Positions 2,757 to 36,917 of a stretch of 39,526 nucleotides of DNA are shown one piece after another. The stretch spans positions 1-39,526 of the forward strand of contig QMOK01000003.1 in the NCBI GenBank assembly GCA_003648195.1. The letters are read 5' to 3'. Position 1 is the first letter of the stretch; each line of letters begins with the position of its first letter. The DNA is from Chloroflexota bacterium. Its GTDB lineage: Bacteria > Chloroflexota > Anaerolineae > Anaerolineales > UBA11858. The position numbers and the translations under genes are program-made. Under the pieces are notes generated by a model. That model was not told the DNA's origin, searched no databases, and worked only from the letters and a program-made list of their open reading frames with translations.

Positions 2757-4487
2757 CTACGAAGATTCAATTATCTTATCCGCTCTCGTTAAAATTTCTT
2801 GAGCAGCTTGTTTATTGCTCTCGCTAGTGCTTCCCAGCATTTGGGCAAGTTCATTTTGCCGCTCTTCGCCTGTTAAAATTCCCACTTGCGTGACTGTGCG
2901 TCCATCCTTAATTTGCTTTTGAACGCGGAAGTGCTGCTGCCCAAAGCCAGCCAGTTGCGGTAGGTGAGTGATGCAAAGGACTTGATGTTCAACTGCTAAG
3001 AGCCGTAACTTGTGCCCCACAACAGTGCCCACCCGCCCTCCAATTCCTTGGTCAATTTCATCGAATACCAAGGTAGAGATGCTGTCAACGTTAACTAGCA
3101 CTTGTTTCAAGGCCAGCATCAGACGGGATGTTTCTCCGCCAGAGGCGACTTTCGCCAGAGGTTTCAAGCCTTCGCCGGGGTTGGTTTCTACCATGAATTC
3201 AATCTCTTCTAGGCCATCTTGAGTGTAGGCTAGTCGGCGGTTACCATCTACTGGCACACCCGCTGGGTCTGGGGTTTGATGAAAATTAACTCGGAAGCGA
3301 GCTTGCGCCATGCGCAAGTCTTCCAATTCTTTCTCTAGGGCTGCTGCCATTTGCTCTGCGCCTGTCTGACGGCGCTGCGTTAGAAGTTGGCCTTTCGCGC
3401 CTAATTCTGGGAGCAGATTTTCTACTATCGCTTCTAACTCGATAATACGCGCGTTGCTATTGGTGATTGTTTCTAGTTCAGCACGAGCGTTCTCAGCGTA
3501 ATTCAAAACTTCTGGGATTGTTTGACCGTATTTCCGCTTTAAGGAGCGTATCACATCTAAGCGTTCTTCAACTTCTGCAAGTCGTCCGGGGTCAAATTCT
3601 ATGACGTTCAAATAGTCGTGCAAGTCGTGCGCCAGCTCTGCGATGCCTTCAAATAGGTCATTAGCTTTCTCGCTCAACGCAGTTTGAGAAGGATCAGTAT
3701 TAGTCAAATTTGTAATATTATCTACGATCTGACCTAGAAGCTCCGTGACTGTAGGTTGGTCTGGGGGAGCTTCATCTAGGAGGCTCAAGGCAATTTGGGA
3801 AAGTTCAGCCAGTTTTTCTGAATTTGCCAAACGTTTGTGTTCTTGTTTTAGTTCTTCATCTTCTCCATCGGCAAGATTTGCCATGTCAATTTCGTTCAGT
3901 TGATAAGCTAATAACTCGGAACGCTGGGCATTGTCGTACTCAGATTTCCTTAATTTGGTTAATTCTTGTTTGGTTTGCTGTAATTCGCGGTAAGTTTTTC
4001 GATAATCGGCTAAGGCTTCTCCTACATCTGCGTAGCGGTCTAGCAAGCCAATGTGTTGGTTGACGCGCATAAGCGAAAGATGTTCAAATTGGCCGTGGAT
4101 ATCGACTAGGCACTCTCCTAGTTCAACTAGAATGCTCACGCTGGTGCGGTGTCCATTCACACGGGCTACGTTTTGTCTATCACGTCTGAGTTCCCGGCTT
4201 AGGGTGAGGTAGTCGGTGTCTTCTAACAGTGCTTCACGTTTGAGAATGGCAAACACTTGTTTTTTGACTTTCGCTGGGATACAGAAAACCGCTTCCACGC
4301 TTGCTCGTTCGGCACCGCTTCGGAGGTCTGTCATATCTGCCCGATTCCCCAGCAGCATGCCCAAAGCGCCCATAATAATGGATTTTCCAGCCCCTGTTTC
4401 TCCAGTAAAGACAGTTAGGCCTGGCTTAAATTCTAGCTCAAGTTCGTTTATAATGGCGAAGTTTTTAATACGAAGTTCAGTAAGCAT
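2757..4487 (-). CDS. recN: DNA repair protein RecN
   Basis: MLTELRIKNFAIINELELEFKPGLTVFTGETGAGKSIIMGALGMLLGNRAD; 'VASGGETSRLMLALKQVL' signature and 'LVFDEIDQGIGGRVG'. Start set at the MLTEL Met rather than the longer track start. Confidence 0.97.
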   Translation of the reverse strand: MLTELRIKNFAIINELELEFKPGLTVFTGETGAGKSIIMGALGMLLGNRADMTDLRSGAERASVEAVFCIPAKVKKQVFAILKREALLEDTDYLTLSRELRRDRQNVARVNGHRTSVSILVELGECLVDIHGQFEHLSLMRVNQHIGLLDRYADVGEALADYRKTYRELQQTKQELTKLRKSEYDNAQRSELLAYQLNEIDMANLADGEDEELKQEHKRLANSEKLAELSQIALSLLDEAPPDQPTVTELLGQIVDNITNLTNTDPSQTALSEKANDLFEGIAELAHDLHDYLNVIEFDPGRLAEVEERLDVIRSLKRKYGQTIPEVLNYAENARAELETITNSNARIIELEAIVENLLPELGAKGQLLTQRRQTGAEQMAAALEKELEDLRMAQARFRVNFHQTPDPAGVPVDGNRRLAYTQDGLEEIEFMVETNPGEGLKPLAKVASGGETSRLMLALKQVLVNVDSISTLVFDEIDQGIGGRVGTVVGHKLRLLAVEHQVLCITHLPQLAGFGQQHFRVQKQIKDGRTVTQVGILTGEERQNELAQMLGSTSESNKQAAQEILTRADKIIESS

Positions 4488-4488
4488 A

Positions 4489-5007
4489 TTAGTGATTGAA
4501 TTGGTAGTAGACTGTTGTAGTAACAATCGTAGAGTAAAGTCCTATCCAAGTTAGGGGTAAAATCGCTCCCAGCCCCAGGCTTTCAATTATAAGCACAGAG
4601 CCAATAATGTTGATGAGCAAAATGGGAACGCTTCCCAAGAAAGACGCGGCAGCGACCACTTGATAAAGTCTAGGAGAACGCCTTTTTTTAGTTATTTTCC
4701 GAACTATTGCCACAATGATGGCGCCGACTATGGGGGCAATGAAAACAACGTAAAATCCAAAAGCCCCTGCCAGCAAGCTCCCTAAAAATGAGAGTATTCC
4801 CGCTGCCAAAGAACCTGATAAATAATCATACCACTTTGTGGTGATAAATATTTTTTGCTGGTTTTTTATACATTCGGGGCAACGGTAGCCAGTGGGAGTA
4901 TGTTGAGCGCATTTTAGGCAGATAGGTCTTCCGCACTTGTTACAGCGCAAACGAGTTTCACGTTTGGGGTGAAAGGCGCAGGTAAGGGGTGGTGAATTCT
5001 CGCTCAT
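4489..5007 (-). CDS. B-box-type zinc finger plus multi-TM membrane protein
   Basis: N-terminal CAFHPKRETRLRCNKCGRPICLKCAQHTPTGYRCPECI Cys/His pattern followed by several hydrophobic segments; overlaps nadK by 4 nt. Confidence 0.75.
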   Translation of the reverse strand: MSENSPPLTCAFHPKRETRLRCNKCGRPICLKCAQHTPTGYRCPECIKNQQKIFITTKWYDYLSGSLAAGILSFLGSLLAGAFGFYVVFIAPIVGAIIVAIVRKITKKRRSPRLYQVVAAASFLGSVPILLINIIGSVLIIESLGLGAILPLTWIGLYSTIVTTTVYYQFNH

Positions 5008-5858
5008 TGTTTTTTCTCTATTGATGGGTTGCAGCTCATGTGAGGGGTAAGGTTTCGGTAAAAATACCCTGGGTCTTCAAAACGAACGAAGCGGACAGTG
5101 TGTTCACCAGCTCTAATTTCAATACGATCACTTTCTTGAAGTTCAATGGGAAATTGTCCATCAATGGAAAGTACGGCTTCGTGTTCGGTATGAGCTAACA
5201 CAGAAATATGGGAGCCTTCTGCTAAAACAATGGATTGCTCAATGGAAAGATGAGGTGCCAAGGGGACGAGAAGAATATTGCGCAATTCTGGTAATAGAAT
5301 AGGCCCCCCGGCTGCCATGGCATAAGCGGTAGAACCTGTTGGCGTAGAGGTAATAATGCCATCGGCCACATAGGTGCTTAATAGCCGTTCATCGACATAA
5401 ACTTCTAGTCGAATAGGTCGAGCAAATCTTCCTCGGCTGATAACGGCATCATTAAGGGCCATCCACTGCCCAATTTGTTGTTCGTCACGCCACTGTGCTA
5501 TTTTCAACGTCATGCGATCTTCAAGCCAAAACTCGCCCCGAGCCAACCGGCCAAGGGCGTCTTGCCATTCATCGTGCCCAATCTCGGTGAGAAAACCAAA
5601 TTTGCCTAAATTAATCCCTAGAATAGGCGTCCCGCTGGGAGCGCACATATGTCCCGCTCGGAGCATTGTTCCATCTCCGCCCAAGGCAATGAATAAATCT
5701 TGTTCGTCAACATCAAGGTCGTTAAGCATACCCGCTACAACTTCTAAATTTCTTTCACGAAGATGTTCCGCGATTTGCTCAACAAGTTGAGATGCCTCTA
5801 TAAATTTGGGATGAGTGCCTATTAGTATTCTTCGAAATTCAGAGAGTTTTCTTGTCAT
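5004..5858 (-). CDS. nadK: NAD kinase
   Basis: 'ALGGDGTMLRAGH', 'LGINLGKFGFLTEI', 'TPTGSTAYAMAAGGPIL' NAD kinase motifs; start MTRKLSEF overlaps the upstream stop (TAATG). Confidence 0.95.
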   Translation of the reverse strand: MTRKLSEFRRILIGTHPKFIEASQLVEQIAEHLRERNLEVVAGMLNDLDVDEQDLFIALGGDGTMLRAGHMCAPSGTPILGINLGKFGFLTEIGHDEWQDALGRLARGEFWLEDRMTLKIAQWRDEQQIGQWMALNDAVISRGRFARPIRLEVYVDERLLSTYVADGIITSTPTGSTAYAMAAGGPILLPELRNILLVPLAPHLSIEQSIVLAEGSHISVLAHTEHEAVLSIDGQFPIELQESDRIEIRAGEHTVRFVRFEDPGYFYRNLTPHMSCNPSIEKKQ

Positions 5859-6382
5859 TAACTTTTTTCGGGTTCTAGTGATTGGTCGCATTTGGCGCGG
5901 TAGCCGCATTTCGCGCATCGTGCCAGAACTTGGTGATCTCTTGGCACGCTGGTTCGAAACTCGTCCCGGCGCATGTCGGCCAGCACATCTAAAAGAGAGT
6001 CCTCAAGTTCTTCTGTATAGTCAATGCGAAATGTTTTTTGGGGGTAATGCAAAATCCCGTAGGAAGGCCGGCGTCTGTATTCTGTTTCTACCAGTTTACA
6101 GTAAACGGCCAATTGAAAAACATGAGCATCGTAAGGTTCATTGCGCACCTTGCTTGACTTAACCTCAACGGGGATAATTTCCCCGCCGTGCTCTACTAAA
6201 TAGTCTGGCTTGCCCGTCAGCTTTAAAACAGCATCGTAAAGCGGATTCTCGACTGCTCCCCATTTTCGCGTGTCGGCGTAGATGACCTTTCCGGGAGGCA
6301 TGGCGGTTGATTGCCGTTGGCGTTGAGAGACCCAGAATAAAACTATCGCCGCTAAAAATACAAAAAACGCTAGATATAACAT
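5858..6382 (-). CDS. Cas4/RecB-like PD-(D/E)XK nuclease, C-terminal half with N-terminal TM anchor
   Basis: TM 'MLYLAFFVFLAAIVLFWVS'; 'GKPDYLVEHGGEIIPVEVKSSKV' (GxxD...ExK), 'FQLAVYCKLVE' (QxxxY), C-terminal 'CAKCGYRAKC' (CxxCx5C). Confidence 0.8.
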   Translation of the reverse strand: MLYLAFFVFLAAIVLFWVSQRQRQSTAMPPGKVIYADTRKWGAVENPLYDAVLKLTGKPDYLVEHGGEIIPVEVKSSKVRNEPYDAHVFQLAVYCKLVETEYRRRPSYGILHYPQKTFRIDYTEELEDSLLDVLADMRRDEFRTSVPRDHQVLARCAKCGYRAKCDQSLEPEKS

Positions 6383-6395
6383 TTTTGCCGCAACC

Positions 6396-6650
6396 TTAAA
6401 CGAGATGCCGCGCTACGTAAACGGTGAACAATCCCAATGCCAACAAGATTAATGCATAAGCTAAAAGTCGCAGCAATCCACTGACGAATACCGTTGTTCC
6501 GTGCTGATAGTGAAGCTCCTGACCATTGACCAATTCCTGCTCGTTTTGGGATCTGACACCTTTAATGGCGTACCACCAGGCACGCTTGCAATACAAATAA
6601 GAAGCAATTTCAGACGCTCGAATGATACGCCGTTCTGATTTTTTGGTCAT
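6396..6650 (-). CDS. Cas4-like N-terminal half with C-terminal TM anchor
   Basis: 'RIIRASEIASYLYCKRAWWYAIKG' matches the Cas4 N-terminal Cys motif, 'NGQELHYQHG' resembles the GxxxH motif, then TM 'VSGLLRLLAYALILLALGLFTVYVA'. Start could instead be at 6683. Confidence 0.7.
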   Translation of the reverse strand: MTKKSERRIIRASEIASYLYCKRAWWYAIKGVRSQNEQELVNGQELHYQHGTTVFVSGLLRLLAYALILLALGLFTVYVARHLV

Positions 6651-6685
6651 TGGTGTTTCGCTATCTTCTCTACTTGCCGCCAAGT

Positions 6686-7009
6686 TTATTCATCGGTTGG
6701 GGTGGGAGGATGAAATAAAGATTCGGCCAAAGAGGTAAAACCAGGTGATTTGATTTCGCCAAATTTCTGTTCGTACTTAGCAATGTTTTCCTGTAAGGCA
6801 TGACAAAACGCTTTAACGCTTAAAGGGCTCATAAGAATACGAGACTTGATCTCTGGCCTTTTTTGGCCCGGCAACATCCGCGCAAAGTCTAGCACTACTT
6901 CAGAAGGAGAATGCGCGATGCGCACTAAATTCACATACTGTGCTTCTAAATCAGGAGGCAAATCCACTGAGAGTAAATTTTTTTTTATGTTTTCTTGATT
7001 TTGGCTCAT
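6686..7009 (-). CDS. DUF3467 family protein
   Basis: 'YVNLVRIAHSPSEVVLDFARMLPGQKRPEIKSRILMSPLSVKAFCHALQENIAKYEQKFGEI' fits DUF3467. Confidence 0.85.
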   Translation of the reverse strand: MSQNQENIKKNLLSVDLPPDLEAQYVNLVRIAHSPSEVVLDFARMLPGQKRPEIKSRILMSPLSVKAFCHALQENIAKYEQKFGEIKSPGFTSLAESLFHPPTPTDE

Positions 7010-7135: not shown

Positions 7136-7558
7136 CTAAAAGGGAATCTCATCTTCTTCGGCTGGGGGTTGACCTCCCACATTGCCCTGAGCTTGGTAAG
7201 CCTCATTTTCTGCTTTACTGGACAAGAAAACTACTCGATTGGCGGAAATTTCAAAACTGGCGCCCGCCGAGCCATCCTGTCGAGTCCAAATTCGGGGGCC
7301 GCCGGTTTGGGGGTCTGGTTTGATACGGCCTTCTACTAACACTTTGCTACCCCTGCTAAGGTATTGGTTAACCGATTCGCCTTGGGCTCCCCATACTGAG
7401 ACACGGAACCAGGTTGTTTCTTCTTGTTTCTGCCCATCATTACTAGTCCAACGCCGACTTGTAGCAACGGAGATATTAGTAACAGCTCGCCCATCCGGCA
7501 TGTAGCGCAATTCTGGGTCACGGCCTAAGTTTCCTACAATAATAATTTTCTGATACAT
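7136..7558 (-). CDS. ssb: Single-stranded DNA-binding protein
   Basis: MYQKIIIVGNLGRDPELRYMPDGRAVTNISVATSRRW OB-fold; acidic tail 'PPAEEDEIPF'; GGAG RBS upstream of the ATG at 7558. Confidence 0.96.
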   Translation of the reverse strand: MYQKIIIVGNLGRDPELRYMPDGRAVTNISVATSRRWTSNDGQKQEETTWFRVSVWGAQGESVNQYLSRGSKVLVEGRIKPDPQTGGPRIWTRQDGSAGASFEISANRVVFLSSKAENEAYQAQGNVGGQPPAEEDEIPF

Positions 7559-22058: not shown

Positions 22059-22883
22059 ATGGCTACTTACCAAGAATCAATGCAAATGCTCAAACTAACA
22101 AGCCGAACATTTTATCTGCCCATCGTTCGGTTACCTAAAGGAATCAGGGAAGCTGTTGCGTCTGGATACCTTTGTCTTCGAGCAATTGATGAAGTAGAAG
22201 ACCATCCCACCTTAGAAGCAGAGCACAAAGCCAGAATACTCCACACCATCAGCCAAATTTTTCAAGCCCAAACATCGGCAGACTCTTTTGCTTACCATGC
22301 CCTTGAAACAGCTTTTGTGGAATATCATGACGTTCTGCCTGAAGTAACCCTGCGCGTTGGAGAATGGGCATGCCTAGCACCAACCTTTATAGCCCCTCGC
22401 GTCTGGGAGGCGACAGCTACAATGGCCGATCGTATGGCTCATTGGGCCGCCAATGGATTTGAAGTGGTCTCAATAGCGGACTTGGACCGCTATACTTACG
22501 GTGTGGCCGGGGCGGTAGGCTTGCTGCTTTGCGATCTTTGGGCTTGGTTTGAAAAAATACAAATTCACCGTACACACGCTATCCAATTTGGACGTGGTTT
22601 ACAAACTGTTAATATTTTGCGTAACCGCAGCGAAGACTTGTCTCGCGGGGTGAATTTCTTTCCCGAAGATTGGGACAAGGCGCGCATGTTCGCTTACGCT
22701 CGTGAGAATCTCGATAGTTTCAGTGATTACGCTAAAACATTGCCCAAAACAACATTTATGAATTTTGTCGCAATCCCCCGCGCGCTGGCTTACGCTACTC
22801 TTAATGTCTTAGAGCGCGGCGAAAAGAAACTCACCCGCAAAGCGGTGATGGAGATAGTTAAGCAACTTGAGTCAAAAGCATAG
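22059..22883 (+). CDS. Squalene/phytoene synthase family protein
   Basis: 'SRTFYLPIVRLPKGIREAVASGYLCLRAIDEVEDHPTL' and 'GRGLQTVNILRNRSEDLSRGVNFFPEDW' with both Asp-rich motifs. Confidence 0.9.
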   Translation: MATYQESMQMLKLTSRTFYLPIVRLPKGIREAVASGYLCLRAIDEVEDHPTLEAEHKARILHTISQIFQAQTSADSFAYHALETAFVEYHDVLPEVTLRVGEWACLAPTFIAPRVWEATATMADRMAHWAANGFEVVSIADLDRYTYGVAGAVGLLLCDLWAWFEKIQIHRTHAIQFGRGLQTVNILRNRSEDLSRGVNFFPEDWDKARMFAYARENLDSFSDYAKTLPKTTFMNFVAIPRALAYATLNVLERGEKKLTRKAVMEIVKQLESKA

Positions 22884-22906
22884 TTAAGCAACTTTTATCA
22901 AAAACA

Positions 22907-36660: not shown

Positions 36661-36917
36661 CGGGAGCACTCAAAGGTTGTTGGAAAGCTCTGCCCCCTGT
36701 CAAGTGTAATTTGATAGGCTCGTTTTAGGGCATGGAATTGATTCCATGTTTACATGCGATTGCGGATTGAGAGGGGCTAAGGTTTAACCAACAACTTTTT
36801 AGCACACCCTCCTTTAGGGAGCACTAAAAGGTTGTTGGAAAAAATGTCACTTCGTCAGGGTAAATTGTAGCGGCATTAGAGGATTAACCAACAACTTTTT
36901 AGCACTCCCCTCCTTTA
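36661..36917. repeat. Two tandem inverted-repeat-bounded elements separated by TCCTTTA
   Basis: GGGAGCACTcAAAGGTTGTTGG...CCAACAACTTTTTAGCACaCCC / TCCTTTA / GGGAGCACTAAAAGGTTGTTGG...CCAACAACTTTTTAGCACTCCCC / TCCTTTA; a third TCCTTTA at 36654-36660. Confidence 0.85.

Follow-up and report, generated by a model that had tools for sequence, protein, structure and literature searches.

Two neighbouring open reading frames in a Chloroflexota genome each encode part of what looks like a single Cas4-like nuclease, which raises the question of whether this is a broken gene or an enzyme that is encoded as two membrane-anchored half-proteins. The locus lies in a 39,526-nucleotide stretch of DNA (contig QMOK01000003.1 of GCA_003648195.1), which we refer to as the window. 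The original prediction was that the two frames form a split, membrane-anchored Cas4/RecB-like Fe-S nuclease that needs both halves and acts in a housekeeping role outside CRISPR. We found that the split, the membrane anchors, the Cas4-like character, the joint requirement for both halves, and the independence from CRISPR are all supported, whereas the housekeeping role fits the data but is not shown.

Both frames are on the minus strand, head to tail, 13 nt apart and in different frames. The first, P1 (6396-6650, about 84 aa), is best read from the ATG at 6650, because homologues start near this codon; the start at 6683 in the original prediction is an upstream TTG. The second, P2 (5858-6382), has 174 aa. 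The P1 stop runs into an AAGG about ten bases before the P2 ATG, and the P2 stop codon overlaps the likely ATG of nadK at 5858, although the longest nadK frame starts at 5918 inside P2, so the genes read like a tight operon. In the numbering of the translations P0001 and P0002, P1 carries C32 in YLYCKRAWW (codon 6588-6590), the predicted first ligand of the Fe-S cluster, and H58 in GQELH (GxxxH, codon 6510-6512), a predicted metal-site histidine. P2 carries G57/D60 (GKPD), E73/K75 (EVK), Q90/Y94, and a CxxCx5C motif with C156, C159, and C165 (5888-5917), the predicted other three cluster ligands; the catalytic D60, E73, and K75 are encoded at 6158-6205.

These residues are not chance matches. 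The Cys, Arg, Gly, and His are invariant in 45 aligned P1 sequences, and the G, D, E, K, Q, Y, the three Cys, and a few more residues are invariant in 48 aligned P2 sequences. Each half matches the complementary part of the Cas4 model TIGR00372: window P1 covers model positions 2-45 (43 of 45 P1 homologues match) and window P2 covers positions 32-178 (48 of 48 match). Window P2 passes the cut-offs of both TIGR00372 (74.6 bits, cut-off 65) and Pfam PF01930 (44.4, cut-off 22.7; E 2.5e-11), whereas P1 alone stays below both (PF01930 4e-4, just under the cut-off) and has a PADLOC Cas4 match at 3e-7. AlphaFold2 predicted the structure of window P2 with a pLDDT of 87.8, and the best Foldseek hit is Cas4 (8d3l, E 1e-6).

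Every aligned P1 and P2 sequence has one strongly hydrophobic 19-mer (minimum mean hydropathy 1.8), which is located at the C-terminal end of P1 and the N-terminal end of P2. In the window, these predicted transmembrane (TM) helices correspond to about residues 70-92 of P1 (6408-6476) and about residues 2-20 of P2 (6323-6379), the latter matching a helix at residues 2-26 in the AlphaFold2 model. Across the aligned sequences, K+R is 2.7 before versus 0.3 after the P1 helix, and 0.04 before versus 3.3 after the P2 helix, so both catalytic parts should be cytosolic.

We next asked whether the cut is conserved. A search of 100 relatives identified P2 in 77 genomes and P1 in 74. In every adjacent pair examined in Chloroflexota the halves are separate frames, with gaps from -10 to about +700 nt and all three frame relations, and seven genomes have a 4-nt overlap, as in coupled translation. 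In a phylum sample of 349 genomes, all 72 with a strong P2 (E up to about 1e-50) also have P1, and only one genome (G157, 82% complete) has a strong P1 without P2. In nine of these 72 genomes the halves are clearly unlinked (G134, G243, G296, G348, G362, G369, G374, G395, and G414), as they are in four genomes of the window's order (G035, G048, G068, and G100). In G296, a single-contig genome, they lie at 0.24 and 3.05 Mb; several genomes are drafts, and some unlinked cases on short contigs are weaker than G296, G374, and G414. The unlinked halves that were inspected keep their motifs and TM helices. In G048 and G035 the ancestral operon broke exactly between the halves, leaving ssb-DUF3467-translin-P1 on one contig and P2-nadK-zinc finger-recN on another. 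Seven genomes of the window's own genus lack both halves, with the flanking operon genes otherwise in place as far as the retrieved stretches show. The near-perfect co-occurrence, even when unlinked, and the joint loss say that the two products work together.

Natural fusions in archaea provided a control. The first archaeal relative (locus L064) and 20 more Thermoplasmatota proteins join P1-like and P2-like parts in one chain, and the six checked by hydropathy have four TM helices between them. Other members appear from their length and sequence to have one hairpin (L276, L277) or longer TM inserts (L278, L279). Both bacterial halves match the archaeal single-chain form in profile comparisons (E 7e-10 for P1 and 9e-53 for P2). 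The AlphaFold2 model of the L064 protein (21 rows, pLDDT 81, pTM 0.75) shows the helix that carries the GxxxH motif running straight into TM1, and TM4 running on towards the nuclease core. Foldseek ranks Cas4 chains first for this protein and for window P2, followed by MGME1, Dna2, and the Argonaute-associated ACE1. Unexpectedly, other Thermoplasmatota have the split pair, with a P1 of about 90 aa and a P2 of about 170 aa, each with a hydrophobic segment in most reads, and adjacent in 15 of 15 loci. In a tree of 75 P2-type domains, the membrane forms separate from 12 ordinary Cas4 (93/94), the fused archaeal forms are one clade (100/98), and split versus fused needs one change. Rooted on ordinary Cas4, this suggests that the split form came first and was re-fused once in archaea, although long outgroup branches make the root uncertain. 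A scan of genome contigs with P2 gave only two loci, and the surveys thus cover Chloroflexota and Thermoplasmatota only.

In the window's order, the usual operon is ssb, DUF3467, translin/TRAX-like, P1, P2, nadK, a zinc-finger membrane protein, and recN. In the window, all on the minus strand, these include ssb (7136-7558, single-stranded DNA-binding protein), a DUF3467 protein of unknown function (6686-7009, PF11950, 2.7e-20), nadK (5004-5858, NAD kinase), a B-box-like zinc finger plus membrane protein of unknown function that is kept in almost all operons (4489-5007), and recN (2757-4526); ssb and recN were named from their sequences and are conserved neighbours. The operon link to ssb and recN is limited to the window's order, and Chloroflexia and genomes with unlinked halves have other neighbours. 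The translin/TRAX-like protein, encoded between DUF3467 and P1 in most genomes of the order (e.g., L075:3711-4343 and 26 further loci), is a clear relative of archaeal AfTRAX (3e-35) with conserved acidic residues. It is not an obligate partner, as it is missing from the window's genome and occurs without the pair in five genomes (G011, G021, G034, G045, and G069).

The most likely reading, to which we assign a probability of roughly 0.6, is that P1 and P2 are the two subunits of one membrane-tethered Cas4-family PD-(D/E)XK nuclease for chromosomal DNA housekeeping. Each would be anchored by a single TM helix with its short tail outside and its nuclease part in the cytosol, and the two helices would pair where the single-chain archaeal relatives have TM hairpins. 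Together the halves would complete one active site (His from P1; Asp, Glu, and Lys from P2) and one Fe-S cluster (one Cys from P1, three from P2), so neither half could be active alone and the cluster would staple the heterodimer. By analogy with Cas4, Dna2, and MGME1, the enzyme would trim or cut single-stranded DNA or DNA ends at the inner face of the membrane, beside SSB and RecN. The anatomy is near certain, but, without a model of the complex or measured distances between the cysteines, the heterodimer and its cluster are inferred, as are nuclease activity, substrate, and the repair or end-processing role; the pair is also dispensable. It is further likely, though not demonstrated, that these proteins represent a clade of membrane-embedded Cas4-family nucleases normally assembled from two separately encoded membrane subunits, such that cluster insertion at the membrane gates nuclease assembly, and that archaea later fused the halves through TM hairpins.

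An artefact or dying gene (a sequencing frameshift, programmed frameshift, assembly error, or pseudogene) could be suspected from two frames 13 nt apart, but is refuted by the same cut across the order and phylum with variable frame and gap, by the unlinked halves, and by the invariant motifs. A role as a CRISPR-adaptation Cas4 acting in trans is suggested by the Cas4 family membership, by the P2 score above the TIGR00372 cut-off, and by cas1 in the host genome, yet this reading is largely refuted: the host has its own ordinary cas4 next to cas1 on another contig, 11 of 26 pair-bearing genomes of the order in the phylum sample lack a cas1 match, and the membrane forms separate from ordinary Cas4 in the tree. 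The absence of CRISPR in the original prediction is therefore true of the window only, in which no cas1 and no CRISPR-like array were found; two short direct repeats at 22854-22905 (26 nt, tandem) and 36780-36909 (30 nt at 100-nt spacing) are not CRISPR-like.

Other readings assign the pair a different task. The least improbable is that the same two-subunit membrane nuclease destroys DNA entering the cell by phage injection, conjugation, or transformation. Placing a nuclease at the membrane suits entering DNA, the membrane nuclease SNIPE is a proven case (PMC13190303), a cyanobacterial Cas4-like nuclease reduces plasmid transfer or maintenance (PMC10653904), and some archaeal fused genes lie beside a PLD-type nuclease gene. 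We consider this unlikely, though it cannot be excluded, given the order-wide presence in an operon with ssb, nadK, and recN rather than in defence islands, and given that searches of plasmids yielded only distant matches and searches of phages none. A competence factor that processes the strand imported through ComEC would fit the membrane position and the ssb and recN neighbours, but is improbable: no association with ComEC was seen in 101 relatives, all ten same-genus genomes have ComEC though seven lack the pair, and several pair-bearing genomes that are at least 90% complete (G017, G024, G033, and G083) give no ComEC match. Recruitment as a non-nuclease Fe-S sensor or scaffold is similarly doubtful; Cas4-like folds may lose activity, and a TM anchor and redox cluster would suit a sensor, but no analysis supports this directly and the D, E, K, Q, Y, and His are invariant in 45-48 diverse homologues.

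Cas4-family genes outside CRISPR loci are already known. Hudaiberdiev et al. 2017 (PMC5704561) reported solo-Cas4 in Chloroflexi and Thermoanaerobacterales, mostly vertically inherited, including a monophyletic group in many Chloroflexi that is probably the P2 half seen here, and our pair likewise lies in a conserved chromosomal operon without close plasmid or phage relatives. That paper states that all members hold four cysteines, and its main text mentions neither splitting nor membrane anchoring; here, one Cys and the His are on another gene. CRISPR Cas4 (PF01930/TIGR00372; structures 8d3l, 7mi4, 4ic1, and 4r5q) provides the best sequence and fold matches and shares the PD-(D/E)XK core, GxxD, ExK, QxxxY, and the 1+3 Cys, but P1 and P2 are two polypeptides in all Chloroflexota loci examined, are membrane-anchored, and are not beside cas1/cas2. 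SNIPE also holds its nuclease domain on the cytosolic face of the inner membrane by a TM helix, but it is a single-chain defence protein with a GIY-YIG nuclease and DUF4041, whereas a Pfam scan here shows only Cas4/PDDEXK-type nuclease matches. Dna2, MGME1, and ACE1 have the same nuclease fold but are single chains without the TM pair, and Dna2 also has a helicase. Cas4-type nucleases are described as single soluble chains, and we found none described as split or membrane-bound in the literature searched, which mostly excluded subscription papers. If one Fe-S cluster and one active site are shared between two membrane proteins, which evolution has kept separate across much of a bacterial phylum and in archaea, this would be a natural two-key switch for a dangerous nuclease. 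It also means that a standard model (TIGR00372) names P2 CRISPR-associated Cas4 although it is neither complete nor CRISPR-linked.

Predicted secreted proteins with a lamin-tail domain and PLD nuclease domains lie beside or near the fused archaeal membrane Cas4 genes (L064:1608-3548, L193:2418-4235, and L197:7404-9233), and a TPD-motif protein (PF14811) is encoded directly upstream of the fused gene in many Thermoplasmatota (L189, L190, L191, L194, L198, L200, L203, and L205). One family, possibly Ktedonobacter-like (L219-L222), has a longer P1 (135-154 aa) with an insert between the Cys and the His and a very divergent P2, preceded in most cases by an HD-domain gene.
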